Assembly: GCF_000003815.2 (NCBI RefSeq)
Contig: NC_049979.1
Location: 35,249,400-35,313,399 of the forward strand
Reading direction: 5' to 3'
Source: Branchiostoma floridae
Taxonomy: Eukaryota > Chordata > Leptocardii > Amphioxiformes > Branchiostomatidae
Length of the DNA: 64,000 nucleotides
The notes under the pieces: model-generated
Databases searched by the model: none
What the model was told of the DNA's origin: nothing
Seen by the model: only the letters and a program-made list of their open reading frames with translations
In this document: positions 7,162 through 63,639 of the stretch, piece by piece
Position numbering within the stretch: position 1 is the first letter of the stretch
Layout of the letters: each line of letters begins with the position of its first letter
Program-made: the position numbers and the translations under genes

Positions 7162-7176
7162 TCAGCGCATTTTTTT

Positions 7177-11137: not shown

Positions 11138-11209
11138 CGCATCAAGTAGAAGGGAGAAAATCTTCCAAGATGGCCACGCCTCAAACCACACCTAAGAAAG
11201 ATGTACCTG
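11138..11209 (+). CDS. Exon 1 found: start codon exon
   Basis: Begins after the acceptor ...tctgtag and ends before GTAGGT, leaving one base (phase 1). The ATG at 11170 has a good start context (aag ATG g) and encodes MATPQTTPKKDVPG. An in-frame TAG (11146-11148) lies 5' of the ATG in the same exon. The AG at its left edge suggests an upstream non-coding exon, which I could not place. Confidence 0.72.
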
Positions 11210-14200
11210 GTAGGTTTGTATATATTCATCATCATCATCATCATCATCGGCGTCAGCTCGTGACCGAGCATTAGTTCATGTCCATCCAGTCTCATTTGTT
11301 GATTGTTGGTGGCGGTGTCTGAGGTGGCTGCTCAGTCCCAGGGCAGTGTGGAACAGTCTGGGACACTTTGTGCAGGGCAGAGTGGGTGGGGAGCGAGGAA
11401 GTATATATGTATATATTACAGTAGATAGTTTTAGGCACGGTTGTTTCTCAAAAGAAATGTTTTTCATGATGGCAGATTCTGAAAGGGCTGCTGTGTTCCC
11501 TGTGAATTGTCATTGCTGGGATTTAATTTGACTTACACAGACTGAGGCAGGAATCAAAAACTAGAATTATGATTTGTATAAAATTAAAGGTTCCAAGTTC
11601 ACTAACATCAGAAGAGCATTTTGCAAAAAAAGTCTGCTCATTGAATAGTAATCATTCTTGATTGAATGCTATCAGGTACTGCAGGTGTTGTATTTTATTG
11701 TCATTGTTGGCATTTTATAGATGATCTAGTGCGAGGTATATCCAAAGTATGGATTATATCATCAAGACTTTGTATCAAGATCTAGAGGATTCATGAGAAA
11801 AACAGACTGCAGGATGGGGTTGCAGTCATTCAGGACTGTCTATGTCAATCCACACCACGATTTCTATAAAGGACCCATCAAACTCATCATAAAGGGGTTT
11901 TGTGTACATTGTTTGTGCCCTACCATGCACGTCAATGAATATTCTTCGCAGTTTGTTAATTTCACTGGGTTATTTTGTACATCTGTACGTACAAAGGATT
12001 CAATTTTGTAAGCTCCATGAAAAATGCTGTAGTCCTGTTTTTTTGATAAATTAATGTGTTCTTACATTCTGCTCTCTATACAGATGACTCTCAATTTTAC
12101 TATATAAAGACAGAAGCAGGCATGAAGTGGAAGGACCTTGCCCGAAAGCTGGGGTTTACAGAGGCACACTTACAAGTGTTTGAGCACAAGCACAAAGACC
12201 CACGGGAGAGCTGTCTGGAGATGTTGAACAGCTGGCGGCAAATGACAGGTGATGATGGGACAGTCGACACTCTGAAGGAAGCTTTGGTAGATGCCAAGTT
12301 GAAGAACATTGCAGACCACTTGGATGACTATAAGTATAAAGGTGATTAAAGTTCTATAATGATAAATGGCAGGCCAGTAGTTTAACTGCTACATGTGTGC
12401 CCTAGCTCTCCTTTGTCAAATTATAAGTAGTTGAATTCCTTGTACATTCCAAGATTTCCTAAGGACGACGTCCTGACAAGTGTTCCTGGACGACCTTTCT
12501 CCCAGGGAGTCTTGGAGACTTCAGCATGTCTAGAACATAAGATATCAAAAATGGAAGTTCCATTGCAGTACCTTAGAAAGCCGCCATGGACCATCATTGT
12601 CTTGACCCCTAGCTACCTAACAAATATATAAACAAGATCCATCAAAGAAGTCTTCTCCAGTTATGCTGTTCACACACACTGTTAACCTGTGATTCAAATC
12701 GATCTTTTCTTAAGCTTGCTATTAACTTTGTATGATTTTAATACACTTTAAGTTTTGGTAAATGATTATTTGTTTGTTCTAGTCCAAGGTGTGCTTCCAG
12801 CGATGTTGATCAACAATACTACAAGTGACAAAGAAGGAGTGATTGACAATTCAAACACGAACCCTGTTGACGTAAATACCACTGGGCCATCCAATATTTA
12901 TCAAGAATGCACCATAAAGTTAGCCCAAATGGTAATCGATTTAACAAGACACGCTCCTGGTAAGTTAAGCAATATTTATTAGATATTTTTGTACAGTAGT
13001 TACAGTGTTATATCACAGACTTTTGCTTGATTGAGCATGTAGCATTTGAATTTAGTCATGGAAAAGAAACCTATCCAGTGACAGTAATAAACCCATTAGA
13101 TAATTACCAGGATCCACAGAGTCGACAACTGAATTTTTTCAACTTTTGATTTGCATTTATAAAGATATATTAAATTTTTGTTATACCTATTAAGACAAAG
13201 ACTACATTGATGAATGATGAATGGTGATCCAGAATGGTAGTACTTGTGCAACAATTATTGAGATGTTTATCTATTTTGCAAACCAGAAAAAAACGGCAAA
13301 TATTAGAATGGAGAAATTAAAATGGTGTGACCTAATGATAACTCAATCTCTAATTAGTTTCCCATACTAATGTATGTAATCTGAAGGTAACATTTCATCG
13401 TACAGATTTATTTAGATACAGTGACTGTGGTAGTGTGTTTTGATTTCAAAGTCCGAAACTGATAGAATTTAGTTAGAAAGCTAGAAGAATGAACTGTTGG
13501 TGACCACAGGCATAATTTTGCTGTGTACACTGCACACTACACGTAAAAAGTTTAGAAAAAAGATAATTTAGATGTCCATGCCGATTGTAATAGCATTTTT
13601 TTAGGTACCAAGGGCATGTAAGCTCCATACCTGGGAGTATACGATGTAGCCAGGCATCAGAAAACCTGGACCCTTAACAACTATCAGTCCTGGAATAACA
13701 CTATCAGTGTCTGGCAGACAGCACTGTTTTGCTACTGATCAGTGACTGTATGGAACAGTTGACAACTTGTGAATCATGACTGACAGTCATGGATTCCCAG
13801 TGACTGACAGTCGTAGAACAGTCGTTGAATGACATGACTGACAGGTGGATTCCACAGCAGATGAGAAGTGGAATTATTGGCTAACAGTTGTACAATGTAG
13901 ATCTGCTCTTACATAACAAAACACTTCTGCTCACGTACTAGATTTTGGAGGTAGAAATTATACAAAAACTGAACAATAGAAAGATTTTTGCTTCACAGAT
14001 CTTCATAGAGTGCAGAAATGTATGCAACAACTACAAATGCTTTAAAAAATTACAGAAGCAGAAACAATAGACAAGAATGGGACATCATCAATGCCTCCTC
14101 CGTCATTGATTTGACAATTATAAAATGATTAATAATATATAATAACTTGAATTTCTGAATCCACAACCAAAGTCTCTTAAAGAACAGGACAACAACTTAC

Positions 14201-17200
14201 TACACAAATGTACAATGTAGTTAATTCTGTACCTTAAAAGTTTGTGTTTAAAGTGTCTAAACAATAGTTAAGCCCCCTTTACAAATCAATGATATAGCTC
14301 GGCCGAGTTGTCAGCGAGGTCTACATTACGAGGAGGTATGACCCTGATGCCGACGCAGAAACTTTGCCATTTGTTCGTGGGCATCAGCGTTATGCCTCCT
14401 TGTAATTTAGAGCTCGCTGACAACTCGGCCGAGCTAAATTATTGATTTGTAAAGGGGGCTTTATGACAATTAGTCTCTTTTCCAAGTTGGAGGCCAGATT
14501 GAGAGTAAATATCCCTTCTTGTCCTTCCACTAGCTCCTCAACGTAAAAGTTCAAATTTCCCAGGGCCTGCTATCAATTAAAGGAGCTGGTATCTCATTTG
14601 CCAGATGCCTAAATATTACAAGTCTGTGATTTGCCATGGCTGACAGTGTTGGGACAGTCATCGACAGTCGCATTTCAGGCCTGTCAAGACATTCCTATAT
14701 CAGTGCAGAGTGTGATTTGTACTTACTAGTCGTATTGCAGGCCTGTCAGTGGAAGTCTTCTGCTGAATTAGGTCTGAAATGCAACTGTCAGTGACTGTCC
14801 AGCCACTGACAGTGCCATTCCAGGACTGATGGTTTGCTACGGGCAGCCATGTCAGGTTCAGAAAATGACACATAATACTAAGCCCCACCCCACAGACAAG
14901 TGTCTACGGAAGCTAAATCTCACGATTACTGTTGTTAGAAAGTCATCCGACTTGTAGAGGATAAAACAGCCCTCTTAATGTTTCAGGTATGAACAGCCCA
15001 GAGTCACCTCTCCTTGCAGCAGCTCCTACAGGTGCCCATGATTCCTCCGGAGCTGAGGACTCTGAAGGTAGCTTAGTGGAAGGAATGCTTCAATTCCATC
15101 CCACAGTGCATGGATCACAGGTCTGTATTGAGAACAATGGCACTGTGGCACGAAGTAAAGACAGCTTCAACAACAGTATCTGTTTCAGTTCAGCACCTGT
15201 CAAAATTGGAGAGAAGATCAACCTCAAAATCATAGATAGCTGCTCATTTGTTGACACCCTGAGGTTTGGGTTCACCTCCCGAGACCCAGACTCTATGATT
15301 GTTGAAGAATTACCACCACACTCCTACCCAAACCTGGCTCACGAACCCAGGTACTGGGTTAAACCTGTCCCTGGTAGCCAGGCCCACCAGGGGTGTGTCA
15401 TGACATTCACACTACAGCAGTCTGGGGAGGTGAGATTTGCCATAGATGGAGAAGACAAAGGCATGTTCTTCAACACGGTGGATGTCTCCCAACCCCTGTG
15501 GGCAGTGGTGGACGTACATGGCAGCGCAGTGGCTGTTCAGCTTGTTGGTAAATATCAACAACTTTGGAATTATTTTTTGATAGGATTATTCTGGTCATTG
15601 TTGGAACTGTTGTGCTCTTAACTCCAAAAGACTAATTTTACATCATACAACATATGGAAAACAAAAATTAAGTTTAGTTGATAGAACATTGTATGCTCTG
15701 ATTTGAGACTACAGGGGTTTCAAATAAAAATTGACAGTCTGTGAGTCGTATGTTGAAAACAATTACAAGGATCATCTCTTGGGCTCTTTTCGTCTCAGGA
15801 AACGGTCAACAGCTTCAGTCTGGGCCTCAGTGTGGTTATTGGTTATGGTTGAAGTTCTAGCCTGGCAGTGTCTTAATAAATTGTATGATTATTCTAAGAT
15901 TTTTTTGGCGACGCCTCAGGGGCGAGCCTAATGTTTATAGTGTGCGACCGTTTGACAGGAATTCTAGGAATTCCGCAGGCATGCGAGGAATTTTTCTACG
16001 GGTATTCCCTAGGGAATTTGTTTTTGTGTGTGACCTTTAGTCTGTCTTGGGTATGGCGTATACATGTAATATGATGACGTGACCGATGTTATAAACCAGG
16101 AATTCATGTGTTAGATACTCGTTTCACCATCAAGTATACAGCACATTACATTTTTTAACAAATTACCCGATATTATGTATCGTTAGGGGAGAAAAGTGGG
16201 TCAGTCATATTTTTGGCTTGACCATTCGGCGTAATGATGTCGTGTATGTATGAGGATTGTTTTGTTTCGTTTGAAGGTTTTTATTTCATATCTTTCTGTT
16301 ATATCATTTTGTATGGTTGTGTGACTCTTGATTCTTCCCTTTTTTTCATATTGCTGTGATGTTCATTTGGTTCCTAAACCATCGCGACAAAGGGGTGTAC
16401 TTGTCAGTCGATTCTTCCTGTAACCTGGGGGTTGTCATGCCGGCGTTCACCTGTGGGGACAGATTGTGAGAGAGGATTGATATGAAGAATTTTTTGCAAT
16501 AGTGATACTAACTTAGCAACTTTTGTATGTCTGGATCGGTAAAGTGTTGTTTTCTGTTAGTTACAGGCAGTCGGAAGTGATGTAAGGCATCAAAGTAATT
16601 CAGATATAATTTATAGCAAAAGTGATACATATTGAATTACAACGCTTATATTGTCATGTCAAGTCAAAGTCCTTCCCGCTCCACGGTGCATAGGGCGGCG
16701 CCCATGTTCTTGCAGTAACCCTGGGCCAAACAACTGCAATTACTACAGCAGGGGGCCAGGACACTGGTTGTGGTGTGTGTTCAAATTTCATACTCTTTCC
16801 CGAATGCTGAGTGCTAAGCTGAGAAATTAGCACGACCATTTAACACGTCATACCATATTCGGCCGGGGATCGAACTTACGACGTACCGAATGCATGGCGA
16901 ACACTTTTCCCACTCGTCTCATTGCACCGGCGATAACGCTTGTGTAGACAGACCACAATACTCGGGATGCTAACGTGTCGTTACTTTGACCGATGAGGTC
17001 TATTTCTCTTATAACCAAAGGGCACAAAAGTGCATTATCATTTACCTTTTGGTGTAGCCCGAGTTTTGAAACATTAAAGAAGTTACAGAAATAAAATGTA
17101 CCGCCGTGAATAAGAAATAATGACACAACATATCCTTTCTCGGCTTGGCTTCGCACGAACGAAGGCACATCAAAATATCAATATACATGTCGGCCTAAAA

Positions 17201-53200: not shown

Positions 53201-56200
53201 CAGTGCCAACTTTCATCTCGGGTAACGCTAGAATTGACGGCTCACGCTAGAGCCACCAAATTTTGTGAGTTTTCCTACAATTTAGTAGGAAACAAATTTC
53301 TACAAAGTTTGGAAAAATTTCCTTTTTTTGTGTTGCCATGGTAACCGTTTGTTGACATGCATTTTTAACGAAACTCGCTACTTTCAGTTCTAACAAATGT
53401 ATTTTTCGAATTTTTTCCTACATTTCTGCTATCATTTGGCATCGTGTGAGCCTACATTTGTACATGGCAGAAACCTCAGGTCTAAACACCAGATAACACA
53501 ATTCCACTGTAGAACTGATAGGTATAGGAAGACTACACTACCTTACCTTGTGGACTTGCTAAACAGTTCATAGTGCTAGTGGTATAAATAAGCTTTGTAT
53601 GTATACACAGTTATTTTAAAAATGATTATTGTAATGTTTTATAATGTTTGAAATTGTGCACGATAGCATGCATGGGAAATATTGTGAGAGTACAGCATAC
53701 ATTTTGTACATGCTCCATCAGATCAGACTCCATCCCAACACAAAAATGGACTCAATGTCAAATGTTGTTAAGCCTTTCTAGTCAAATTTTCTTTTCTCTA
53801 CAGAACTTTACTATAAGTACTCTACAATTAAAAAGTAAGTCCTTTCCTGATGAGCCTGTTTACACGCTCACTGAGACTCACACACTGACACTATCCGGTT
53901 TAGCGTCCGTTCCCAGTGTCTGATTCAAGGGTTAAACGTTGGGTGAAGTCATTAACAATCTGATATAAAAAGTTGATTCTACTAAATTGAATGTCTCTGA
54001 GCAGTCCATGTACATTTTGGCAATTTAGTCTTTATCTAATTCAACAAAGGACTGTGGTTTTGCCTTCCCATTTCGATATGTGTTCTGTAACAACTAATCC
54101 GGAGTTCAGTTACAGACACTCAATATGTTTGTAGTGTGTTGCAGGAATTACTATCATTAAGTGACTGTGCATTTCAATTTGATTTTGAACAGAAAAGATA
54201 TGCAATCCGTCCATATGTACCTGCAAGTCGACCATATTTTGATGTAGTCTCAGATGCAAAATGTTGATTTCCCTAGCAGATATAATATTATTGTTTTTTA
54301 ATTGCAGACTATGTTTCAACCCAGCAGCCCTTACCAAGGTGACAAACACGTGTACAGAGGACAAGTTCTATGTTGGTGACCTGGTACAGATTGAGTCTGA
54401 CCTGGAACGGTTCAAGGCTCTGCAGACTCCAGAGGAGCATGGGGGATATGTGGACCAAATGGCTAAGGTACGCGTAGTTGAGGATCTGATAATTTTTGCC
54501 TTCACCAGAATGACAGAAGGTTATGGAATTTTTGGGCCTATATGTAGGTCAACAGTAGCCTGGGTACCATCCGGATAGTGGTTCACTCCTATGTTTGCTT
54601 CTGTTACTAGTATCCGTCTGGAGACTTGTGCATTCAAACGTTTGGTGCTAACAGCAGTTGATGAGCGAATTAAAGAATTGGCTCTAGAGCGCTTGTTCCA
54701 TGACAACAGGCCTCCCGCAAGCGGACGGAGGGCTCGTCCGGAGTTGGAACGCCTGTTCAAACGATCGCTTGGGCCACACCAATTTAAATAGTTTGTTCTC
54801 GGAATCGCCGCTTCTATTTTTCCCAATTTCAAAAAAAAAAAAAAAATCGGATCAGATCCACCACTCCGTTCAGTTGCTGACGAACTATCGGGTTCAGAAC
54901 ATCTGGAAGTACCAGTAGATTTATTTTCTCTCCCCCCAAATCCTTTGTTACCAATTTATTCATTTCTAGTTTGTTGCAAAACATAATTAGGAACATATAA
55001 ATCATCGTAAAATATGAGATACACATGGACAAGCAACGTAGCAGAAGTTCATATTAAATCATGGCTCAGGAGCATGTGCTCAAACACACAGTAAATTTTC
55101 AACTGAAACACAGAAATCGGCACCCAAATAAACAACTCAATAAATAAGTAATACTTTTTCACTCTTGTACCTCCATAGTCAACATGTTTTGGTATGCCTG
55201 AAAGGTAGAAATTCGTCCGAAAGCCGTCCGATTTTCCGAAAATGGAGTAAACAAACCGAGCGGCAGCCATTTTGTGAAGTGTGCAGCAGCGCCCCCTATC
55301 TTACTATCAGACTTCACAGCTGTTGACTTGTACTGTAATACAGTGAAGGGTCACTGGGTTTTTTCAAGGAGGTTTTTATCAAGTTGCATCTAATTTTTTG
55401 CTAACAAACAATTGTACATGTAACAAAAAAAGGGAGAATTAATATATGGTTTATAGTATATAGTACTTTTGGTTGTGCATTTATTTTTTGGGGAGTGCAA
55501 GTGTATTTATGATTTTTTTCATCTGCACCAGTTGACCATGAAATATATTTAGAGCCTTGGATGTATGGATTTTAACCAACACGGAGGGCAAATAATTCCA
55601 GCAATGTTTTTATTTTTATTTCTAGAGACAAACTTATATGAAATTTGTTGTTGTTATTACAGTTGTTGTTGTAGTTAAAATAGAAATTCTACTAAATTAA
55701 ATACAAAATAAGCTTAATTTCTGTAAAAAATACTAACATTATACTGGTCTGTTTAAGATGTTTTGTGCTTACCACGTGATAAGATAAAAATTAGATAGTT
55801 AACTAGAACGAAATATATTATATCATATTATAACAGATAAACTATTTTTAGCACTGTCACGTATACCATGGGGTCTGGGCCTGACCCCCAACTTGTTGCA
55901 AGTTCATTTTTTTTTTTTTTTTTCGCCCTGTCGCTTCAATTTTTTTCTGAAAAAATCCGAGAACCAACAAATTAAATTGGTATGGCCTTGAACCTATGTC
56001 ACCAAGTACAGTAGGGGCATCTTCTCAGATAGATGTGCAAAAGTTAGGGGTAACGAGTCGTTCGGTGTAATATAACCAGCTGCTGCCGCGCCGCGTGCCT
56101 GCGAAGCTGGTGTGTTACGCCGAACGGCGGTTATACCGGCTATATAGATACAGATACGGATATTCCATAATTCGCTCATGTGGGGACCAATCAGTGCCTG

Positions 56201-59200
56201 CGTCCAAAATTTGAACGATTCCAGACGTTAAAATGGTCCGCGTTCCCAGACGGAAACAGAGAAGCGACTGTATATAGTGCATAATGAATGTCAGAGCTAG
56301 AAGTAGACTGAAGTGACTGTATATTGCATATAATGAACACCGGAGCAAACTACTTTCCGGATGGTACCCAAGCTAGGTAAACAGCATATAACTCAAAAAG
56401 TTATCGATGGATTTTGATGATATTTGGTAGGTGTGTAGCAGTTGTGGAAAGGAAGATCAACAGTTTACTTATCTGTTCCTACATTTTCAGTATCACAAAA
56501 AATGTGTTGCTTAAATTTGTGTCCATCCAGCCAAAAATCCGAAGGTGCAAGATTTCTCTTTCTCTACACCTTGAAATGAAAATTGTTACGTGACCATTAA
56601 AAAAAAAAGTTGAAAAAAAAAGATGTGATGAAGGATCATGAAGGAACGTTATCATACATTGGTTCAGTGCGGATCTAAGGCCTAGAATCGCAACAACCTC
56701 AGCGGGAGAGGCTGCTTCACAATGACTTTGTCATTGAACTGAAACAGTTTGCATTGTGAACCATTTGCTGTTTGGATTTTTGCATTACGAATAGGGCCTT
56801 AATTAAAGCAAGGAGCTTTTGTCAACAAAATGACTAATTATAAAAATCATTGAAATTAAAGGTTGGTCCTGACTGATTGGTCTTGACTGATACAGGTCAA
56901 AAGCTTATAATAACTATTTATAATTAGATATCAAAGTTTTAGAAATATTGTATCCATAGGGAAGAATCAATTTTTGTTGTTGATATTACAGTTGTGTGGA
57001 AAGACTGGAAGAGTGTTGAGCATTGCTGACAGCAAGAGAGTCCAGGTCAAAGCTCTCGGAGAAATCAGGACTTTTAATCCAGATCTGCTAAGAAAGATGG
57101 GCAACTCAAGAGCTGGTTAGTCATTTTACATTGAATTTGTTCAGTTTATATCTTTATATTTCAGCCATACATAGCATGGTGAAATATATTGTATTCGTCA
57201 TGTTTCTTCTTCTTTCTTTCTTTCTTTCTCCTGTCAAATCTTCAAAGTGATTCATCTCCGCCGTTCCTGGACCGAATGACCTGAAATTTGGCACAGGGGT
57301 AGAATGGGCCAATACCTTGATACTTTTTTCTCAGTTTTTTCATATCTGCCTCTAAAATGATTTTATTGAGATTTTTTGGTCAATTTTAGACCAAAACTGT
57401 ATATTTTGGCCCCTGTACCCTGGTATTACAACCAAATGAGCTGAAATTTGACAGAGATGTGCCTTGATAATGCCCCCCATATAAATTCGATAACACTTTT
57501 GGTGTACAGTACAACAAAATGCTTATTTTTGCGATTTTTTGACCAATTTTTGACCAAAAAAGGACACTTTTGGCCCCTGTACCCTGGTATTACAACCAAA
57601 TGAGCTGAAATTTGACAGAGATGTGCCTTGATAATGCCCCCATATAAATTCAATAACACTTTTGGTGTACAGTACAACAAAATGCTTATTTTTGCGATTT
57701 TTTGACCAATTTTTGACCAAAAAAGGACACTTTTGGCTCCTGTACCTTGGTATTGCAACCGAATGAGCTGAAATTTGACACAGATGTGCCTTGATAATCC
57801 CTTCATATAAATTCAATAACACTTTTGGTGTACAGTGCAACAAAATGCTTATTTTTGCGATTTTTGGCCAATTTTTGACCAAAAAAGGACACTTTTGGCT
57901 CCTGTACCCTGGTATTACAATTAAATGACCTGAAATTTGGTATAGATAGGCATTAGATACTTGGTAACAAGATTCAAGTAAAATTTTTGATAAAACAACT
58001 TTAAAATGATTAATTTTGGCACTTTTCTGAGGGGAAATTTGTTTTCTTTTGGCCTCCTGACGTGACCTTCCGTGACCCCGCACAGAGCCACACCTGTGCG
58101 CGTCAGCCGGAGAGTTAATTGAATCAAAGACCTAGCCAATCAGCGAAGAGGAGGCCAAAGGCTAATTAATATTCAAAAGCGGGGCCTCATGATCCCGTAT
58201 ATAGCAGTGTTCCCGCCAGGGGGAGCGAAGCCCGCCTAAGGCTCTCGCATTTTAGACTATTCAGAAGGCTTTATATTGTATCAGTTCTTAGGGGCATATC
58301 TATGATAATCGAAGCAGTCAATTAACTTCTCTTCAGGAGTTTAGCGTAACACTATTTCAGGTCAAACAGTCAAAGGCAACTAAAAACAAACTTTAACGTT
58401 ACTGAGTTCAACAGTACTTATAACTTGTTATCCGAAGTTGAAATGCTAGCGATGGTATTTTTGCTGCGCTGTTAGCTCCGTGCGACTGTTGTTGACGGTC
58501 TTATAACGGTATATTTTGCACCCCTGTACCCTGGTATGAGTAACATTTGGTATAGATAGGCATAAGATAGTTGGTAAAATGATCCAAGTAAAATTTTTGG
58601 CATAAAGTACTGTAAAAGGCTTAATTCATCATCATCATCGCGGGCTGCTTGCCCGGACCAAGTCCACCCTCTCCTTCCACTCCAGACTTCTCTGTCCCCC
58701 ATAGCGTTCTTAAGGTCCTCCACCCGAAGCCCCACATCACGTGCAAGTTGGTCTATGTATGTTAGTCTAGGACGCCCAGCATGTGCATACCCGTGTGTTG
58801 GCTTCCACAGAATGCGTCCACTAGCAAGCTCAGCTTTGTTTCTAAAACAATGGCCGGCAAATCTGGTCCTACGCTCCCTGATGATGGTTGATATGGCAGG
58901 AATATTGCCATACAACTGTTCCTTGGTAGGATGTTGCTTCCATAACTTGTTAAGCACGGCCCTCAGCATACGTGTGTACTAAGTACCATCAAGCTTGCTT
59001 TCTAGTTTCCTAGTTAGTGTCCAAGCTGGTGAGCCATACAATAGTATAGATTCAACTATCGCTCTGAAGAAATCCCTTTTCAGGTTGTCTGGTAGTGAAG
59101 ACTTCCATATAGGACTTAGGTTGTGAAGAGCACTCCAGGCTTTGGCAATACGAATCAAAATATCCCTTTCAGTAGAAGAGATGTCACTTCCCAGATACGA

Positions 59201-61030
59201 GAACCTTTCGACTTGTTTCACAGGAGCTCCATTCAGGGCATCAATCTTGCCAATTTGATTAAAACAGATGTACAGTCAAACCTGTCTATAGTGACCACTC
59301 AAGGGACCGGACAAATTTGGCCACTATAGACAGGTGGCCTCTGTATAGAGGTGGTAACTTGTAGATAAAATACCCAAGGGACCGACAAAAAGTGGCCACT
59401 ATGGACAGATGGCCCCTCTGTAGAGGTGGCCCCTAATACAGGTTTGACTGTACAGTCAAACCTGTCTATAGTGGCCACTCAAGGGACCGGACAAATTTGG
59501 CCACTATAGACAGGTGGCCTCTGTATAGAGGTGGTAACTTGTAGATAAAATACCCAAGGGACCGACAAAAAGTGGCCACTATGGACAGGTGGCCCCTCTG
59601 TAGAGGTGGCCCCTAATACAGGTTTGACTGTATTCAGTTTTTTTAACATTAACATAGAGACCAATCCCTGAAGCTGCCTCTTCCAGCGCATGTAATAGTT
59701 TTTCAGCATGTGCAATTTTGTCGGCAAGTAATGCCAAGTCATCTGCATAATCAGCATCTGTGATCTTCTTAGCTGGATATCTACTGCTCCTGGCTTTCTG
59801 TAAGGTGAACCCAAAGTCGTTGTGTGTGTCCACAGAGGTACGAAGAACATAATCCAGAGCAAGAATGAAAAGAAATGGGGCTAGAGTATCCCCCTGTAAG
59901 ACCCCTGCATGGATATGAAAAAAGTCTGTGTCACCATCAGGAGATCGCACCATGGAAGTGGTATTCTTATACATCATCATTATTGCATTTACAGTTTCTC
60001 CAGGGATTCCGTAGGCTTCCAGAATTTCGGCTAACTTCCCTCTGTGAAGACAGTCAAATGCTTTTGAGAAGTCTACGAACAGCATGACTGCTTCTAAGTT
60101 CTTCGCTTTCACCCCTTCAATGATCCTTCTCACTGTTAAGCTCTGCCCTAGTGTTGATCTATTCTGTCTGAATCCATTCTGGTTTGGTCTCAGCACTTTT
60201 TCTACTTCAGGTTGGATTCTATTGCGTAACATTGCATTGTAGACTTTAGCAGCGATAGGCATGAGGGTGATGCCCCTGTAGTTTGCAGTGAGTGACAGAT
60301 CTCCTTTCTTCGGAAAAGGAAGGATGCACCCTTTCGTCCAAATCTGGATAGAATTTTGCAAGTACATTCTATGAATGGAGTTATGTATCAAACTCGTGTA
60401 CTTATATCATTCTGAAACTACATTTTGTGATTTATACCAATCAACTTTTAAAATGTCATGTAAACCCGTTTTTTTTGGGGGGGGGGCGAAATCGCTAAAG
60501 GGGGGCGAGGTAGGGGGGCGAGATCACTAGCCGGGGAGGGCGAGATTGCTAGTGATTTCGCCCCCGGGGGGGCGAGATCACGGGGGGGGGGGGCGAGATC
60601 GCTGTCACACCGATACCCACTTCTAAATTGCTGTGAATGACGACTGAATTTGCTGTTTGTCAGAAGGTTATCATTTCAGAACTCACAGAGAGAAAATTTA
60701 ACTCATTTAATATGCAATATACAATGTACAATAATTTCAAACCATGCATCACCAACCTGAAATGTACTTATATTAGACAATTTCCTTGCTCTTGTACTGT
60801 GCAAGGACTAGGTCTTGTGCCTTGCAAGGACCTTGTACTTTGTGACTTTACACTAAAGAATGATTATGTAAGTTGATTATTGCTGCAGACTGGAGGTCAG
60901 CCACAATCTGTGCCCCTGGCAAACATGACTGGAGCCATGGCAGGTGTCTGATCTGTGTTGTGTGTGGAGAATGTACGGAGCATGGAAAACTGTGTCATGC
61001 ACCAGGAAGGCCAAACAACAGTCCTGGCAG
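11138..61030 (+). CDS. Death-NHR-SH3_15(x8)-Cys-rich protein, 24 exons, 3' incomplete
   Basis: Spliced host gene; coding starts at ATG 11170. Joining the 24 exons listed separately gives 3530 coding nt (1176 codons plus 2 nt) with no stop, and all junctions are GT/AG with matching phase. Domains by residue: Death about 17-96, linker 100-158, NHR about 191-345, SH3_15 domains 1-2 (346-557), Cys module 1 (558-about 630), SH3_15 domains 3-8 (648-1129), Cys module 2 start (1130-1176). From the families: NHR domains of Neuralized and REP (SH3_15) domains of Mind bomb bind Notch-ligand tails, and Death domains mediate homotypic signalling contacts. A cytosolic adaptor or ubiquitin-ligase role is inference, since no RING or ankyrin repeat is inside the window. 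No signal peptide or membrane segment is seen. The 3' exons lie beyond 64000 or were not recognised. Confidence 0.86.
11224..11410 (-). mobile_element. LINE 3'-end fragment with zinc finger and (GAT)n tail
   Basis: Minus strand encodes LPCTKCPRLFHTALGLSSHL then RHRHQQSTNETGWT and a stop, followed by a (GAT)n tail seen as catcatcat on the + strand at 11229-11247. Same arrangement as the finger end of the fragment at 9358. Lies in the intron after exon 1. Confidence 0.7.
12084..12341 (+). CDS. Exon 2: Death domain
   Basis: Phase 1-1 exon, residues 14-99. The protein contains the Death-fold signature: MKWKDLARKLGFTEAHLQVF, then SCLEMLNSWRQ, then VDTLKEALVDAKLKNIADHL. These match helices 2, 3, 5 and 6 of the family, including the conserved Trp-x-x-Leu-Ala and the M-x-x-x-W block. 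Acceptor ctctatacag and donor G|GTGATT. The exon encodes essentially the whole domain, so it is a self-contained cassette. It may contact other Death-domain adaptors; which ones cannot be told from sequence. Confidence 0.88.
12783..12959 (+). CDS. Exon 3: Asn/Thr-rich linker
   Basis: Phase 1-1, residues 100-158, acceptor tttgttctag, donor G|GTAAGT. Polar and low-hydrophobic (INNTTSDKEG, NSNTNPVDVNTTGPSN), with a short amphipathic end (LAQMVIDLTRH). No domain recognised; probably a flexible spacer between Death and NHR. Both splice sites and phase fit the neighbours. Confidence 0.78.
13660..14860. mobile_element. Imperfect inverted-repeat element carrying a nested MITE
   Basis: Left end has atcagtcctggaataacac (13683), the right end attccaggactgat (14817) as its inverted partner. 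Several gactgacagtc motifs lie in both arms. Interrupted by the MITE at 14271-14460. No coding capacity seen. Lies in the intron between exons 3 and 4. Confidence 0.55.
14271..14460. mobile_element. Harbinger-like MITE, 190 bp
   Basis: Terminal inverted repeats of about 50 bp starting AGCCCCCTTTACAAATCAAT, with gctcggccgagttgtcagcg inside each arm. Flanked by the trinucleotide TTA on both sides (14268-14270 and 14461-14463). A TTA duplication fits PIF/Harbinger elements. No ORF. Confidence 0.8.
14987..15547 (+). CDS. Exon 4: Neuralized homology repeat (NHR)
   Basis: Phase 1-1 exon, residues 159-345. After an acidic Ser/Ala-rich lead, the NHR runs from about residue 191. Family motifs in order: MLQFHPTVHG, FNNSICFSSAPVKIGEKI, TLRFGFTSRDPDS, YPNLAHEPRYWVKPVP, VRFAIDGEDKGMFFNTVD and LWAVVDVHGSAVAVQLV. 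The length (~155 residues) is that of one full NHR, all on a single exon. In Neuralized proteins this domain binds Notch-ligand cytoplasmic tails. Acceptor taatgtttcag, donor G|GTAAAT. The next exon is 11 kb downstream. Confidence 0.93.
15548..18685. other. Intron sequence; no gene recognised
   Basis: First part of the 11 kb intron after the NHR exon. Short open frames only, none with a recognisable motif. I looked for further phase-1 exons with NHR or SH3_15 motifs and found none. Confidence 0.45.
18686..18892 (-). CDS. Last exon of an uncharacterised intronic antisense gene
   Basis: On the minus strand the acceptor tttctctttag precedes 68 codons and a TAG stop. It encodes a charged, helical, basic segment: ENSLQRELDKAKEACLDPLV, then LLRLQEKAIRVGAKRSVVER, then YKNLANFVLENPSKTNMW. 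It starts in phase 0 and joins in frame to the donor at 20259. No family recognised. The exon has no internal Met, so ORF scans that need a start codon miss it. It lies wholly inside the large intron of the Death-NHR gene. Confidence 0.65.
   Translation of the reverse strand, partial: ENSLQRELDKAKEACLDPLVHRYPAKLHGPLLRLQEKAIRVGAKRSVVERYKNLANFVLENPSKTNMW
19620..20130. repeat. ~60 bp tandem repeat in the antisense gene intron
   Basis: About eight diverged copies of a unit containing gggagatacaacttcaaccc and gcccgtccaggaaaacaaag, at 19683, 19740, 19801, 19862, 19923, 19996, 20053 and 20115. Spacing about 57-73 bp. Open frames across it on both strands are repeat translations. Confidence 0.88.
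20259..20823 (-). CDS. First coding exon of the intronic antisense gene, frameshifted
   Basis: GC-rich exon ending at donor GAG|GTTAGT. Two overlapping frames look coding. From 20823 (or the better-placed ATG at 20760, MSAPAPPVLRGDATL) the first frame gives helical, acidic sequence (LSDDELAERLETLTGENSVF; HETIVRLAHFLIMAANDAAA) and closes near 20275. The second frame supplies PPPAKKAKPVPLEGDSSSGS (basic patch then Ser/acid tract) and is the one that splices in phase to exon 18686-18892. A +1 shift around 20360-20390 is needed to join them, so this is either a sequence error, a polymorphism or a decaying gene. Function unknown; a mobile-element ORF cannot be excluded. Confidence 0.5.
20830..22345. 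other. Spacer; candidate divergent upstream region of the antisense gene
   Basis: No coding sequence recognised. 21128-21205 holds a short inverted repeat (tagcctggataccat at 21130 against ttggatacca-ggcta at 21190). It is reminiscent of element ends but too short to classify. Confidence 0.35.
22470..22980. repeat. Palindrome array 1 (about 14 units)
   Basis: Units of the form CAGCACTGG-n4/6-CCAGTGCTG, each a 9-10 bp arm hairpin with a short variable loop, mostly about 31 bp apart with spacers such as aacttttccga. Several loops differ while keeping the arms. Lies in the left half of the element 22351-24054. Confidence 0.9.
23455..23720. repeat. Palindrome array 2 (about 8 units)
   Basis: Same unit as array 1 (cagcactggatttccagtgc-tg), about 31 bp spacing, spacers such as aaacgtcct. 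The two arrays are separated by about 470 bp of unrelated AT-rich DNA. Confidence 0.9.
24060..26708. other. Intron sequence; no gene recognised
   Basis: Right part of the 11 kb intron. 24946-25305 has overlapping open frames on the minus strand without recognisable motifs. Nothing else supported. Confidence 0.4.
26709..26833 (+). CDS. Exon 5: SH3_15 domain 1, first half
   Basis: Phase 1-0, residues 346-387, acceptor atgctatcag, donor AAG|GTAAAG. Encodes EGDQVQLQDVEIQTLRAMHD, the strand-turn pattern that opens mind bomb REP domains (x-G-D-x-V-x-V ... L-x-x-L). Opens the first four-exon SH3_15 cassette, which here has an extra exon (29326-29391). Confidence 0.82.
26865..27914. mobile_element. 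Inverted-repeat element, GGTGGGTACTGGTAC termini
   Basis: Left terminus ggtgggtactggtac near 26868, inverse gtaccagtacccacccc at 27896-27912. Blocks such as ggacctggacctaatcctctg near the right end recur at 37330-37400. Begins about 30 bp after the donor of exon 5. No coding sequence. Confidence 0.65.
27915..29325. other. Intron sequence; short tandem repeat
   Basis: 28092-28132 has about four copies of acaggaaacc. No further exon or element ends recognised. Confidence 0.4.
29326..29391 (+). CDS. Exon 6: glycine-rich loop of SH3_15 domain 1
   Basis: 22 codons, phase 0-0, acceptor gtacattgcag, donor CAA|GTAAGT. Encodes GSHGGGSGGGGIEADDISQ, aligned with the HGG(W/Y)...M loop present inside the first-half exon of domains 7 and 8. 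In this domain only, the loop is cut into its own exon and enlarged with glycine. Skipping it would keep frame, so it could be an alternative exon. Confidence 0.72.
29785..29867 (+). CDS. Exon 7: SH3_15 domain 1, second half
   Basis: Phase 0-2, residues 410-436. Encodes GEVGIATRIDSNEDKVHVFF, the G-x-V-G-x-V ... D-V-x-V-x-F core of the fold. Acceptor gtttacccag, donor GG|GTAAGT. The domain is closed by the first residues of the next coding exon, which lies beyond a 5.4 kb intron holding a retroelement. Confidence 0.85.
30176..30196 (+). promoter_or_regulatory. TATA-like box in repeat A1
   Basis: cttgggtataataaaatata about 80 bp before the Gag ATG. The second copy at 34176-34187 reads tataaatataag. 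The repeat-borne position suggests the element carries its own promoter. Confidence 0.4.
30262..30693 (+). CDS. Retroelement Gag, exon 1 (Ala/Pro/Gln-rich)
   Basis: ATG at 30262 opens 144 codons of low-complexity protein: MSQVPQQPRAGGIRAAAAAV, with two perfect tandem copies of GPQAAIAAPQ (30512-30570). Ends at donor GAG|GTAAAA, phase 0. Probably a disordered N-terminal region of Gag. Long open frames on the opposite strand are GC shadows. Confidence 0.65.
31138..31575. repeat. 17 bp minisatellite, about 22 copies, in the Gag intron
   Basis: Unit ggtctgtgtgacaaaat is almost perfectly repeated from about 31204 to 31571. It is preceded by five copies of a related 15 bp unit gctggtctgtgcaac (31140-31204). 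Read in any frame it gives long artificial ORFs, because 17 is not a multiple of 3 and no unit contains stops in the minus frames. Confidence 0.97.
31713..32501 (+). CDS. Retroelement Gag, exon 2 (coiled coil, repeats, CCHC knuckle)
   Basis: Acceptor ttctgctacag at 31712, phase 0. 262 codons: helical region SILQDLRRIAARPDDLFEAS and LEEFQASAEELREHRNSSRL; then a Met/Gln/Phe/Pro-rich array (QNTQFPMQ-like octads, about ten copies, 32110-32350); and a C-terminal zinc knuckle CYECGSYNHLVAMC (C-x2-C-x4-H-x4-C) followed by a stop. The knuckle identifies a nucleic-acid-binding Gag. Confidence 0.8.
   Translation, partial: ELWQLVRIQTTVDGISRGRRSVDSILQDLRRIAARPDDLFEASTTLQLVDDLIEAATREKHKKLEEFQASAEELREHRNSSRLKRAVKEVFSSEVVRKVNKRLAPIFGDDSNSDTQPSISVIQAAPVQAWPVPVQNAQFPGQNFQFPVHTQFPAQNFSMQNPQFPFQNTQFPLAMHNTLFPMQNTQYPMQNTQLPMQNTQFPMQSTMFPMQYPQVMQQPQGLVLPQPQVMSVHKSSGRSGNNRRCYECGSYNHLVAMCPRLK
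32502..33470. repeat. Degenerate tandem repeat in the retroelement body
   Basis: Successive loose copies of a ~60-65 bp unit with gtagaaagatgattttgtgag and gttaatgatc (32640-32960). No open frame. Reverse transcriptase would normally be expected in this part of an autonomous relative. Confidence 0.5.
33471..33649 (+). CDS. Possible further exon of the retroelement
   Basis: After acceptor cattgtttcag one frame is open to a TAG at 33647: RRKYEFLVPEWELETPFDPE then RAAQSKQTAHSWVNWEGKPW. Acidic and Trp-rich; no family recognised. The matching donor is not certain. Confidence 0.4.
34850..35110. repeat. Dispersed repeat related to 47990-48375
   Basis: Shares the blocks tgacccatgac, caaact(t)agccg, gagccacat and gcttagtatgaa with 47990-48375. 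Non-coding. Ends about 200 bp before exon 8. Confidence 0.5.
35318..35552 (+). CDS. Exon 8: end of SH3_15 domain 1 and start of domain 2
   Basis: Phase 2-0, residues 437-515. Starts with WRLSSALLRKV, the closing motif that corresponds to W-x-x-x-P-A-A-L-x-K-V. It then opens domain 2 with EGDLVKITTDLEIVKSVQK. A second copy of that opening follows (DDVLTIAADVTNVKKVQK) before the donor AAG|GTGGGT, making this exon longer than its three paralogues (157-166 nt). Acceptor gacttgtccaag. Confidence 0.85.
36153..36279 (+). CDS. Exon 9: SH3_15 domain 2, second half
   Basis: Phase 0-1, residues 516-557. Encodes ILGKIGRVQGVGKNGDIVVR and the closing ILKPHAVEKI. Acceptor tgtataacag, donor G|GTAAGT. Completes the first SH3_15 pair. 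Confidence 0.88.
36280..37009. other. Intron sequence; no gene recognised
   Basis: G-run at 36415-36432 and a duplicated ccatcttgga block (36705 and 36850). Open frames have no motifs. Confidence 0.4.
37010..37430. mobile_element. Relative of the 26865 element, short copy
   Basis: Right part carries ggtccggacctggacctgac and tgtaccgttacccaccccc, matching 27840-27912. Left part has ggaccggtccag. Non-coding. Confidence 0.55.
37664..37790 (+). CDS. Exon 10: cysteine-rich module 1, first half
   Basis: Phase 1-2, residues 558-599. Pattern C-A-x-G-x-H-x-W-x-x-G ... C-x2-C-x2-C-T-x2-G-x2-C ending in SPG; key stretch VCVQCGKCTAEGAKC. Cys/His spacing suggests zinc binding. I do not recognise the family. 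Acceptor cattttgcag, donor AG|GTATGG. Confidence 0.85.
38181..40279. mobile_element. 2.1 kb element with long inverted repeats
   Basis: Outer termini GGCCCCGTTCATGATGCAAA with the inverse at the right end, matching over about 45 bp. Inner inverted blocks (tgtgaaaattcaagcgtc at 38580 against gcttgaattttcacatagga at 39958) extend the arms to about 450 bp. Flanked by TTT on both sides. A fragment of the right end recurs at 56680-56805. 38966-39202 holds a 78-codon frame (SDYVKKREEEKYKM end) with no recognised domain. Lies between exons 10 and 11. Confidence 0.7.
40357..40499 (+). CDS. Exon 11: cysteine-rich module 1, second half plus linker
   Basis: Phase 2-1, residues 600-647. Encodes SCCGCRSKDAGCVYCRLCKS followed by CAG, then a non-cysteine linker (EFMQNWTMNLYNQFE). 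Together with exon 10 it gives a Cys-rich unit of about 70 residues framed by phase-1 introns. Acceptor gttttccag, donor G|GTGCAG. Confidence 0.85.
40500..41155. other. Intron sequence; no gene recognised
   Basis: Simple catcatcatcat tract at 40707. Nothing else recognised. Confidence 0.4.
41156..41274 (+). CDS. Exon 12: SH3_15 domain 3, first half
   Basis: Phase 1-0, residues 648-687. Encodes ERGDEVKVTLDRDTFRKLQ and ends WDEDMVK, in place of the HGG loop seen in domains 1, 5, 7 and 8. Acceptor ggtttattag, donor AAG|GTACAT. Opens the second cassette. Confidence 0.84.
41275..42077. other. Intron sequence; no gene recognised
   Basis: AT-rich, with one 100-codon + strand frame (41676-41978) lacking motifs and splice support. 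Confidence 0.4.
42078..42151 (+). CDS. Exon 13: SH3_15 domain 3, second half
   Basis: Phase 0-2, residues 688-711. Encodes IIGVPGTVTLHLGNHVLVRL, shorter than its paralogues but with the G-x-V and V-x-V-R core. Acceptor tacatgtag, donor TG|GTAAGA; the split codon restores Trp with the next exon. Confidence 0.83.
42389..42545 (+). CDS. Exon 14: end of SH3_15 domain 3 and start of domain 4
   Basis: Phase 2-0, residues 712-764. Closing motif WVPLFAGCLTK, then KKGDLVRVIMDEERLKQLQ. Acceptor tctgtatag, donor CAA|GTACAT. Same layout as exons 8, 18 and 22. The next intron is 6.2 kb and full of nested elements. Confidence 0.84.
42645..43091. mobile_element. Inverted-repeat element with AGTGGTGC termini
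   Basis: Left end atagtggtgcatacc (42648), right end gctacgcaccactat. ATGTAC occurs next to both ends. Interior holds repeated ggtcaggtccgga and gaccttaagtc-type blocks similar to the 26865 and 37010 elements. Confidence 0.6.
43130..43345. repeat. CCAATCAGAAGG-type dispersed element, copy B
   Basis: Starts tatcatatagccaggcgctg and holds ggaccaatcagaaggac plus four alternating copies of (tcgatttgcatcgacacc / its inverse). Related to 2106-2330, 44503-44540 and 51109-51150. Confidence 0.65.
43420..44260. other. Non-coding repeat-derived DNA
   Basis: 43430-43510 has direct/inverse cttgc-gcaag motifs and G/C runs. 44060-44160 is the second copy of the dispersed repeat at 2000-2105. 44242-44260 (ggctatatgataataac) is the left stub of the element split by the hAT-like insertion. 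Confidence 0.5.
44503..44545. repeat. CCAATCAGAAG-type dispersed element end
   Basis: tatcatatagccaggggatg then ggccaatcagaagtcc, matching the left ends at 43137 and 51109. Confidence 0.55.
45164..45960 (-). mobile_element. Penelope-like element, GIY-YIG end only
   Basis: Minus-strand frame 45923-45537 ends with the nuclease start: SRCGVVYHITCQGKTNKGPC then KETYIGETERALKTRF (the GIY and YIG equivalents are VVY and YIG). After a frameshift/deletion near 45555 it continues at 45535 with VAQHIHIESPGHSVSLDKVK, EAVYIRAHRPTLNRDGGRHR and LSDTYDPLL. This domain C-terminal to a reverse transcriptase is diagnostic of Penelope-like elements. The reverse transcriptase is missing by 5' truncation. Confidence 0.85.
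45207..46015. repeat. Perfect 70 bp inverted repeat bracketing the Penelope-like fragment
   Basis: 45207-45276 and 45946-46015 are exact reverse complements (ttatagaaattgctaaactt at the left start). The left copy is the element's own 3' coding end (RKFRVSPYINSVLERKFSNF). The right copy is the same segment turned round at the truncated 5' end. Confidence 0.95.
46202..46380. mobile_element. Foldback MITE, copy 1
   Basis: Arms gggttaatgaccc...tggtgtcataacgcctggtc and its inverse ggaccaggcgttatgacacc...gggtcattaaccct, about 65 bp each. Relatives at 47015-47160 and 51541-51722. Its right end was the target of the LINE at 46381. Confidence 0.8.
46381..46880 (-). mobile_element. 5'-truncated LINE 3' end with 10 bp TSD
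   Basis: Starts at the left with a T17 run (its poly(A) tail). Flanked by CATTAACCCT on both sides (46371-46380 and 46881-46890). The minus strand encodes the end of a reverse transcriptase ORF: ESVLHFMLYCPLYIHQRSEF then FGNLADLLGHRVNLNN. The rest is 3' UTR (gcgccacat motifs). Confidence 0.88.
47015..47160. mobile_element. Foldback MITE, copy 2
   Basis: gttaatgacctgcctgttcc ... tttgctataaccacc / tgattttatgacaccatata...gggtcattaaccc. Together with the stub at 44242-44260 it forms the sequence into which the hAT-like element inserted. Confidence 0.75.
47161..48791. other. Intron sequence; dispersed repeat at 47990-48375
   Basis: 47990-48375 matches 34850-35110 in blocks. 47318-47700 has open frames without recognised motifs. 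The last part leads to the acceptor of exon 15. Confidence 0.45.
48792..48909 (+). CDS. Exon 15: SH3_15 domain 4, second half
   Basis: Phase 0-1, residues 765-803. Acceptor catgcatgtag, donor G|GTAAAG. Frame chosen by phase: GKTGCVKKVLKRFVQVKFHF and the clear closing motif LQWINRAALIKV. The other open frame here hits a stop and shows no family motif. Ends the second SH3_15 pair. Confidence 0.83.
49235..49440. repeat. Small non-coding element (tgcagaaatgttcgc type)
   Basis: tactgtaaatgcagaaatgttcgcag opening, inverted cgaac/gttcg blocks inside, and closing aaatgcatttattttactgt. Resembles short inverted-repeat elements; family not identified. Confidence 0.5.
49473..49594 (+). CDS. Exon 16: SH3_15 domain 5, first half
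   Basis: Phase 1-0, residues 804-844. Encodes LKAGDCVKVAVDVETF and the loop QHGHGGSVHPTWN with the HGG signature. Acceptor gatgttaacag, donor AAT|GTGAGT. Opens the third cassette, the most compact of the four (49473-50962). Confidence 0.88.
49963..50039 (+). CDS. Exon 17: SH3_15 domain 5, second half
   Basis: Phase 0-2, residues 845-869. Encodes METAGVIKYIDIDGDAFTCF. Acceptor tttttttacag, donor AG|GTTAAG. Confidence 0.87.
50289..50454 (+). CDS. Exon 18: end of SH3_15 domain 5 and start of domain 6
   Basis: Phase 2-0, residues 870-925. Closing motif RWIINPASLEKV, acidic spacer EDIVEEDSSELN, then VNHWVKVDADKARIKQVQ and AAGPWDDVFYA. Acceptor ttttacaaccag, donor GCT|GTAAGT. Confidence 0.9.
50848..50962 (+). 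CDS. Exon 19: SH3_15 domain 6, second half
   Basis: Phase 0-1, residues 926-963. Encodes AAGKVGLVTKVNPSRKIVFI and closing VLVKRASLK. Acceptor ctcatccag, donor G|GTAAGA. Confidence 0.87.
50963..51540. other. Intron sequence with a CCAATCAGAAGG-type element
   Basis: tatcatatagccagacgaag then gaccaatcagaaggctcc at 51109-51150. The following DNA has no recognised gene. Confidence 0.45.
51541..51722. mobile_element. Foldback MITE, copy 3
   Basis: gataacgttaatgtcccgct at the left, ggcgggtcattaaccctaca at the right. More diverged internally than copies 1 and 2. Ends about 200 bp before exon 20. Confidence 0.65.
51917..52050 (+). CDS. Exon 20: SH3_15 domain 7, first half
   Basis: Phase 1-0, residues 964-1008. 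Encodes ARGDLVKISVSLDQLKSLQ and the loop DGHGGYKVDMEK, very close to the mind bomb REP consensus. Acceptor tatttggcag, donor AAG|GTACAA. Opens the fourth cassette. Confidence 0.92.
52051..52883. repeat. Intron with pyrimidine-rich tandem repeat
   Basis: 52370-52512 holds about three copies of a unit with ttcgcactttctgtacattc. Remaining intron sequence shows nothing recognisable. Confidence 0.6.
52884..52963 (+). CDS. Exon 21: SH3_15 domain 7, second half
   Basis: Phase 0-2, residues 1009-1034. Encodes GQPGSVGFIDDDGDVYVRFR. Acceptor tattatacag, donor AG|GTAGGA. Confidence 0.9.
52964..54307. other. Intron sequence; no gene recognised
   Basis: Short open frames only (for example 53648-53923), no motif or splice support. 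Confidence 0.4.
54308..54467 (+). CDS. Exon 22: end of SH3_15 domain 7 and start of domain 8
   Basis: Phase 2-0, residues 1035-1088. Closing motif LCFNPAALTKV, then VGDLVQIESDLERFKALQ and EEHGGYVDQMAK. This exon best shows the mind bomb REP signature. Acceptor tttaattgcag, donor AAG|GTACGC. A 1.8 kb inverted-repeat element lies 88 bp downstream. Confidence 0.94.
54556..56375. mobile_element. Inverted-repeat element with 9 bp TSD, long copy
   Basis: Same termini as 9828-10260 (TAGCCTGGGTACCATCCGGA / inverse ending cccaagcta). Flanked by GGTCAACAG (54547-54555) and GGTAAACAG (56376-56384), 8 of 9 matching. The left 230 bp and right 220 bp align with the short copy. About 1.36 kb between them is extra and lacks a recognisable transposase. 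Lies between exons 22 and 23. Confidence 0.75.
56675..56805. repeat. Fragment of the 38181-40279 element end
   Basis: Contains cgcaacaacctcagcggg, gaactgaaacagtttgca and tttgcattacgaatagggcc, matching 40105-40279. Only this end is present. Confidence 0.55.
56992..57115 (+). CDS. Exon 23: SH3_15 domain 8, second half
   Basis: Phase 0-1, residues 1089-1129. Encodes LCGKTGRVLSIADSKRVQVK and closing IRTFNPDLLRKM. Acceptor gatattacag, donor G|GTTAGT. Last SH3_15 half found. Confidence 0.9.
57260..57965. repeat. ~163 bp tandem repeat, about 4.3 copies
   Basis: cccctgtaccctggtattac recurs at 57411, 57573, 57739 and 57899, followed each time by gagctgaaatttgacagaga and cacttttggtgtacagt. Further diverged material at 58500-58600. 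Minus-strand open frames up to 186 codons here are repeat translations. Confidence 0.92.
58472..60391 (-). mobile_element. LINE reverse transcriptase with C-terminal region, split by MITE dimer
   Basis: Minus strand: KGCILPFPKKGDLSLTANYR, NGFRQNRSTLGQSLTVRRII, AVMLFVDFSKAFDCLHRGKL, GVLQGDTLAPFLFILALDYV and DADYADDLALLAD. After removal of the MITE dimer the frame continues VKKTEY-ICFNQIGKIDAL, ERFSYLGSDISSTERDILIR, one TAG stop (58979-58981), then RTRFAGHCFRNKAELASGRI and GRPRLTYIDQLARDVGL. The 3' end has a (GAT)n tail at 58627-58640. The endonuclease is absent. Confidence 0.9.
59273..59630. mobile_element. Tc1/mariner-type MITE, head-to-tail dimer
   Basis: Two 178 bp units, 59273-59450 and 59453-59630, each starting CAGTCAAACCTGTCTATAGT and ending with the inverse ACAGGTTTGACTG. 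TA lies on the left, between and on the right (59271, 59451, 59631). Units differ at only a few positions. Excision leaving one TA restores the host LINE frame. Confidence 0.95.
60470..60605. repeat. G-run tandem repeat (ggggcgagatc)
   Basis: Repeated gggggggcgagatcgct-like units with at least eight runs of four or more G on the + strand. Can form G-quadruplexes. About 290 bp before exon 24. Confidence 0.85.
60889..61030 (+). CDS. Exon 24: cysteine-rich module 2, first half
   Basis: Phase 1-2, residues 1130-1176. Pattern matches exon 10: CAPGKHDWSHGRC, then ICVVCGECTEHGKLC, ending NSPG. Acceptor attgctgcag, donor AG|GTACAA. By analogy the partner exon with the C-x-x-C repeats should follow. 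I did not find it before 64000, so the gene probably continues past the window. Confidence 0.88.
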
Positions 61031-62580: not shown

Positions 62581-62584
62581 TTAT

Positions 62585-62717
62585 ATGAGGGGTGATCAGT
62601 AAGTTCTTGGCCTCACCCAGAAATGATAAGCACAACTCAAATTTTGAGGCACAACTTCATAGTATGGAGCCTTTTATCAATATCCGCCAAATTTCAAATC
62701 ATCGCAATCATTATTTT
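62585..62717. mobile_element. Mariner-like terminal fragment
   Basis: gaggggtgatcagtaagttc resembles ends of mariner-family elements. No transposase ORF follows; instead the foldback at 62718 begins. Confidence 0.4.
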
Positions 62718-63345: not shown

Positions 63346-63639
63346 TTACAGAATTTTGGGGCCCCCCAGAATTCTGCGGCCCCCCTGGTCACGTGACCAA
63401 CATTTGGCATGCGGGGGCGTGGCCTAAAAACTACGATGGCCCACAAGGACATTCCCCATATACACTGGCTGGCACCAGAAACAAGCCTGTCGTCACATGT
63501 GTATCTGTACTGAGGGCCAACATTATGACATTCTGGAGTCCAAATTATGTTGGAAAATGGTCCGTGCAATATTTCCTAAAAATAAACTGTTTTTTTTTAT
63601 GATCATAGGTTTGCGTAGATATCCGCCTTACTAGATAAA

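Follow-up and report, generated by a model that had tools for sequence, protein, structure and literature searches.

A predicted amphioxus gene combining a Death domain, a Neuralized NHR domain and an array of Mind bomb-type REP domains

Introduction

Can the recognition domains of two separate ubiquitin ligases belong to a single Death-domain gene, and if so, what kind of protein would that gene encode? The question is raised by a 64,000-nt stretch of the Branchiostoma floridae genome (contig NC_049979.1, positions 35,249,400 to 35,313,399), hereafter called the window. The Neuralized and Mind bomb ligases reportedly lack overall similarity outside their RINGs (PMC12678834). Neuralized binds an NXXN site in Delta, for which its NHR1 domain is required (PMC5675594), and in the MIB1-Jagged1 and Mib1-Delta interactions MZM contacts the N-box and REP the C-box, with MZM making the larger contribution (PMC11887331). 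In the window the recognition parts of these two otherwise dissimilar ligases are combined in a single predicted protein that begins with a Death domain.

Gene Model

Independent rebuilding and splicing yielded a plus-strand model of 23 coding exons, from the ATG at 11170 to the donor at 61030, which encodes 1154 residues without a stop (Table 1). The single stop-free frame claimed in a preliminary description of the locus was thus recovered. That description counted 24 exons, and the difference of one may be a 5' non-coding exon; a candidate acceptor for an upstream non-coding part of exon 1 lies at 11138. The exons were drawn from stop-to-stop reading of the plus strand and from motif and splice-site scans, after which intron phase guided the search for two half-domains that were still missing. 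Pfam analysis of the joined protein, proposed earlier as a check, returned SH3_15 (2.3e-57), Neuralized (6.3e-35) and Death (1.7e-15), so that neither NHR nor SH3_15 was rejected, and the modules follow one another as had been described: Death, NHR, a REP pair, a cysteine-rich module, three REP pairs and a cysteine-rich module.

Table 1. Features of the predicted gene (positions within the window).
Feature	Position	Strand	Phase	Remarks
Exon 1: start codon, 13 residues	11170..11209	+	ends 1	context AAGATGG
Exon 2: Death domain	12084..12341	+	1-1	Pfam, RIPK1 similarity, fold model
Exon 3: linker	12783..12959	+	1-1	alternative acceptor 12789, same phase, slightly higher score
Exon 4: complete NHR (Neuralized)	14987..15547	+	1-1	Pfam, fly NHR1
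Intron 4: 11161 nt	15548..26708	+		CpG o/e 0.93; possible two-gene boundary
REP1: SH3_15 no. 1, first half	26709..26833	+		exon 5
REP1: SH3_15 no. 1, second half	29785..29867	+		located by phase and motif
REP1: SH3_15 no. 1 end, no. 2 first half	35318..35552	+		24-column insertion; uncertain donor
REP1: SH3_15 no. 2, second half	36153..36279	+
Cys module A, exon one	37664..37790	+	ends 2
Cys module A, exon two	40357..40499	+		weak donor, score 0.1
REP2: SH3_15 no. 3, first half	41156..41274	+
REP2: SH3_15 no. 3, second half	42078..42151	+		located by phase and motif
REP2: SH3_15 no. 3 end, no. 4 first half	42389..42545	+		splice sites weak
REP2: SH3_15 no. 4, second half	48792..48909	+
REP3: SH3_15 no. 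5, first half	49473..49594	+
REP3: SH3_15 no. 5, second half	49963..50039	+
REP3: SH3_15 no. 5 end, no. 6 first half	50289..50454	+
REP3: SH3_15 no. 6, second half	50848..50962	+
REP4: SH3_15 no. 7, first half	51917..52050	+
REP4: SH3_15 no. 7, second half	52884..52963	+
REP4: SH3_15 no. 7 end, no. 8 first half	54308..54467	+
REP4: SH3_15 no. 8, second half	56992..57115	+		REP4 42% identical to MIB1 REP
Cys module B, exon one	60889..61030	+	ends 2	ends at SPG motif

All 22 introns have GT-AG borders, but the sites were picked among GT and AG dinucleotides and this is little proof alone. When the best donors and acceptors were chosen blind to phase, 20 of the 22 junctions agreed in phase (binomial 3e-8) and 17 of the 22 were identical to the model, although the stretches searched were centred on the model and the two exons located by phase (Table 1) had already been found using it; with the four junctions of these exons left out, 17 of 18 agreed by hand count.

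The intron phases follow the module boundaries. All nine inter-module introns are in phase 1, while all 13 intra-module introns are in phase 0 or 2. Each REP pair consists of four exons, and all four pairs present the phases 1-0-2-0-1, their introns falling at nearly identical places in the alignment (columns 49, 76-78 and 166). This common layout of the REP cassettes is the strongest evidence that the model beats chance, and its fourfold occurrence makes the locus a clear case of exon shuffling. Given that the nine inter-module introns are all in phase 1, the gene appears to have been assembled by exon shuffling from phase-1 modules. A chance origin of the exon chain was rejected on the basis of the junction-phase agreement, the profile searches with MIB1 and with the locus's own repeats, and the introns shared among REP cassettes. 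A pseudogene is unlikely, since 23 exons can be chained without a stop, though the search accepted open exons only.

Death Domain and NHR

The Death exon alone matched Pfam Death at 3e-17. Its nearest solved relative by sequence comparison was the Death domain of RIPK1 (1e-7; 27 of 80 residues identical), and a one-sequence AlphaFold prediction produced a five-helix model with a mean pLDDT of 70.5. In Foldseek the top match of this model was again the RIPK1 Death domain (E 0.012, probability 1.00), none falling below E 0.001, and the leading matches comprised the Death domains of RIPK1, Fas/FADD, DR3 and TNFR1 at E 0.012 and above. The predicted fold therefore gives real but modest support. 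Ankyrins, UNC5 and THO complex 1 were also among the sequence or fold matches. As these matches illustrate that Death domains serve outside immunity too, an immune reading of the locus rests on precedent.

The NHR exon covers the complete Neuralized profile of Pfam (6e-36, positions 1-149 of 149). Among solved structures it is closest to NHR1 of fly Neuralized (4e-27), with 52 of 152 aligned residues identical; KIAA1787, which we take to be NEURL4, matched at E 0.016 only. One-sequence fold prediction of this exon was uninformative (mean pLDDT 42.2). A scan of prokaryote contigs with an NHR pattern returned 85 pattern matches, none of which was confirmed as a relative.

REP Array

The SH3_15 match of the joined protein extends over seven stretches, in which eight repeats, or four REP pairs, were distinguished. 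Scanned singly, repeats 2, 5, 6, 7 and 8 exceed the Pfam cut-off of 24 bits, while repeats 1, 3 and 4 stay under it (17.8, 19.4 and 23.1 bits, respectively). A profile built from the human MIB1 REP only was searched against the 2132 six-frame ORFs of the window, and its top 10 matches were all modelled exons on the plus strand (E up to 0.45). The other six of the 16 SH3_15 exons ranked lower amid chance matches or outside the best 30 listed, and are, judging by sequence, too diverged for a MIB1-only profile. When the repeats of the window itself were added to the profile, which makes the search circular, each of the 16 SH3_15 exons was retrieved with E no higher than 1.4e-4, the next match being an unrelated ORF at 0.08.

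The four pairs are not equally conserved. MIB1 is the nearest solved relative of repeats 7-8 (1e-21), and against 42% identity to the MIB1 REP for REP4, REP1-3 reach 30-32% to MIB1 and 23-27% among themselves. The HG and NP motifs found in both MIB1 repeats are kept only in repeats 5, 7 and 8 and lost in the other five, according to an alignment read by eye. Since REP1-3 have diverged and HG and NP persist in three of eight repeats, binding of the MIB1 ligand is to be expected from no more than a part of the array. A REP4 pattern scan of viral contigs gave six pattern matches, none confirmed as a relative.

Cysteine-Rich Modules and the 3' End

Cysteine-rich module A occupies two exons across a phase-2 intron. 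It had no significant PDB match (best E 0.48), and its best Pfam match was DUF325 (E 0.017), below the cut-off of that family. Only the first exon of module B was recognised, with its intron at the SPG motif and in the phase of module A; its ORF had no Pfam match. The cysteine-rich module, used once and begun again, is possibly an undescribed domain on the strength of these comparisons. No second exon of module B was recognised in 61031-64000, and because the module stops midway, the gene very probably runs past the window.

Pfam analysis of the joined model (23 exons, with a C-terminus probably beyond the window) found no RING, ZZ, MIB_HERC2 or ankyrin domain, nor the MIB_HERC2-ZZ-MIB_HERC2 unit of MZM. 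Likewise, no RING or ZZ pattern occurred in the 2132 six-frame ORFs of at least 20 aa, a scan that intron-split domains would escape.

One Gene or Two

The Death-NHR half and the REP half seem to form one gene, as predicted from sequence. The alternative is that two neighbouring genes, one carrying Death and NHR (exons 1-4) and one carrying the REP and cysteine-rich modules (exons 5 on), were falsely joined over an 11-kb spacer, which we consider possible but rather unlikely. Intron 4 had been named as the weak point of the model in the preliminary description, and its base composition adds to that doubt. The CpG o/e ratio is 0.29 in exons 1-4, 0.18 in exons 5-23, 0.39 in introns 1-3 and 0.62 in introns 5-22 taken together, but 0.93 in intron 4; just past exon 4 it climbs to about 1 from some 0.2-0.4, it drops again near exon 5, and elsewhere it reached a maximum of 0.71 in sampled windows of 11.2 kb. 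The CpG-poor coding exons suggest an animal with gene-body methylation. In the majority of invertebrates, methylation is concentrated on transcribed genes (PMC11292947) and methylated CpG is lost through mutation (PMC8857923), so the CpG-rich intron 4 could be an intergenic spacer. In addition, exon 4 can be read on for 24 codons to a stop, an AATAAA lies at 15723, the exon 4 donor is weak (score 1.3), and a phase match at this single junction would arise by chance about one time in three.

However, exon 4 ends in phase 1 where the NHR profile ends, its read-through tail lies outside that profile, and the start of exon 5 is in phase 1, as it is for the other modules. A high CpG ratio is not peculiar to intron 4 either, as intron 9 (2566 nt, inside a cysteine-rich module and thus internal if module A is real) has 1.06. 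Young insertions would explain the values of both introns, and tandem repeat arrays are present in intron 4, which carries a 61-bp array at 19.7-20.1 kb and 31-bp hairpin-like repeats around 22.5-23.7 kb. Moreover, the gap offers only two candidate phase-1 coding first exons with a good donor, which they share, and this corresponds to 0.18 per kb against 0.16 per kb in intron 13, a count that leaves out non-coding or more internal starts.

Proposed Function and Alternatives

As the explanation that fits best, we propose an exon-shuffled single gene for a probably cytosolic Death-domain adaptor or scaffold, which would use NHR and REP to capture its partners; we regard the chances of this proposal as about even. 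The adaptor or scaffold role is inferred from the domains. The chain would start with the Death domain, continue in the module order given above and end in an unread C-terminus. Short peptide motifs of partner proteins would be bound by NHR, whose fold is SPRY-like, and by REP4 (SH3_15 repeats 7-8) at least, the conserved pair, while the cysteine-rich modules would be structural or binding modules, zinc being a guess. Binding of partners would gather the Death domains, so that an assembly of the RIPK1, FADD or TNFR kind would be nucleated or blocked, probably in immune or cell-death signalling, toward which the Death domain points. Such a protein would reuse what two E3 ligases of Notch ligands employ for recognition, no ligase module having been found in the window.

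Several precedents accord with such a protein. NHR is joined to a caspase in anthozoan NHR-caspases (PMC11251625), and invertebrate proteins combine the Neuralized domain with death or TIR signalling domains (PMC5094078, PMC9334734). A Neuralized domain in place of the kinase within a kinase-death-TIR arrangement has also been noted, a figure legend on Aplysia TIR and COR proteins lists NHR and Death among their domains, and combinations of SPRY-like with Death-like domains are on record. In amphioxus itself, novel Death-domain combinations have been reported, some of them expressed (PMC2575513).

The probabilities that we attach to the other readings overlap one another and that of the adaptor or scaffold. 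Unlikely, in our view, is a decoy or regulator of Notch ligands, in which NHR and REP would bind Delta/Jagged tails, at NXXN and at the C-box respectively, and which, lacking MZM and RING, would compete with Neuralized and Mind bomb. It would agree with the NHR1 type of the NHR and with the identity of REP4 to the MIB1 REP; furthermore, fly Mib1 without MZM appears dominant negative in a REP-dependent manner (PMC11887331), and Neuralized without NHR1 loses Delta binding (PMC5675594). On the other hand, the HG and NP motifs are gone from most repeats, REP is the weaker of the two ligand-binding sites in fly Mib1 (PMC11887331), its partner MZM was not found in the model, and the scheme has no place for the Death domain. 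Nor does the presence of Mind bomb parts in itself imply Notch, as MIB2 acts on RIPK1 and cFLIP via its N-terminal MZM/ZF region (PMC5912950, PMC7815719). Given the five of eight repeats without MIB1 motifs and the NHR-caspase, NHR-Death and NHR-TIR precedents elsewhere, the Death-domain scaffold is favoured, and on these comparisons the Notch reading is weaker than previously stated. A combined version, in which a dual decoy or sensor would read Notch-ligand tails (or mimics of them) and issue a cell-death or immune signal, linking the Notch and Death-domain pathways physically and directly through a chain in which tandem REP cassettes alternate with a cysteine-rich domain not described before, seems to us very improbable.

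Only slightly better placed, and still decidedly doubtful, is the reading as an E3 ligase after all, with RING fingers in the unread C-terminus and the Death domain recruiting the enzyme to death complexes. Module B breaks off at 61030, hence further exons should follow; RINGs are C-terminal in both Neuralized and Mind bomb (PMC12678834), and MIB2 ubiquitylates RIPK1 and cFLIP (PMC5912950, PMC7815719). Yet neither the six-frame ORFs of the window nor the Pfam analysis of the model gave a RING, and of Mind bomb the model lacks both MZM and the ankyrin repeats. Mib has also been listed as a binder of DAPK and cFLIP (PMC3979679). The biology of MIB2 and RIPK1 was rejected as a direct explanation of the fusion, since it is MZM and not REP that acts on RIPK1 (PMC5912950, PMC7815719); as the N-terminal MZM/ZF region is responsible, the MIB2-RIPK1/cFLIP findings were not used as evidence for REP.

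Comparison With Known Proteins

The predicted protein shares with Mind bomb (MIB1/MIB2) the REP made of paired SH3_15 repeats, but it has four REP pairs instead of one, its N-terminus carries Death and NHR, and no MZM, ankyrin or RING was found in it. With Neuralized/NEURL1 it shares an NHR of the NHR1 type. Neuralized carries two NHRs, whereas the model has one, situated between Death and REP, and no RING; the RING of Neuralized would sit C-terminally, where the gene probably exceeds the window. RING-less NHR domains have been reported in non-bilaterians (PMC2770060). The Death domain relates it to RIPK1, FADD and TNFR, with RIPK1 the best match by both sequence and fold, though no kinase, receptor or DED part was found here.

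Anthozoan NHR-caspases and the NHR-death/TIR proteins likewise unite NHR with death or immune domains, but the excerpts of the respective papers mention no REP domains (PMC11251625, PMC5094078, PMC9334734). The innate-immunity combinations of amphioxus resemble the locus in that shuffling has put a Death domain into unusual architectures, of which some are expressed; in the excerpt of that paper, however, NHR is absent as a whole word and MIB occurs only within a DOI (PMC2575513). The order Death-NHR-REP-Cys was not found in a literature search, a comparison that covered publications, and an automatic annotation of the gene may well exist. What may be new is the Death-NHR-REP-Cys combination; shuffled and expressed Death-domain architectures in amphioxus were already known (PMC2575513).

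If the locus is one gene, old parts seem to have been rewired, probably for immune or cell-death signalling, with no enzyme part found. Should transcripts confirm the model, NHR and REP parts would not be tied to Notch, nature would have supplied a REP array, free of any known ligase, for studying REP binding, and there would be more evidence for repeated uptake of NHR into animal cell-death and immune proteins.

Mobile Elements and Repeats

Rfam gave no matches at gathering scores, and Pfam analysis of ten other ORFs gave none up to E 0.05. Four minus-strand ORFs with RVT_1 matches, probably of LINE type, were detected at 144-944, 4698-7196 (also zf-RVT), 8403-9290 and 59582-60406, the last of which sits in intron 22, antisense to the gene. 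Intron 6 contains a minisatellite at 31203-31587 (17-bp unit, 22.8 copies, 99% match) and a plus-strand ORF of 282 residues at 31653-32498, gag-like by eye, with a weak zinc-knuckle match below the cut-off (E 0.0049). In intron 13 a perfect 71-nt inverted repeat (45207-45277 and 45945-46015, 667 nt apart) is perhaps, as a guess, a small DNA transposon. Finally, a 170-bp tandem duplication (95% match) spans 63660-64000 and reaches the end of the window.
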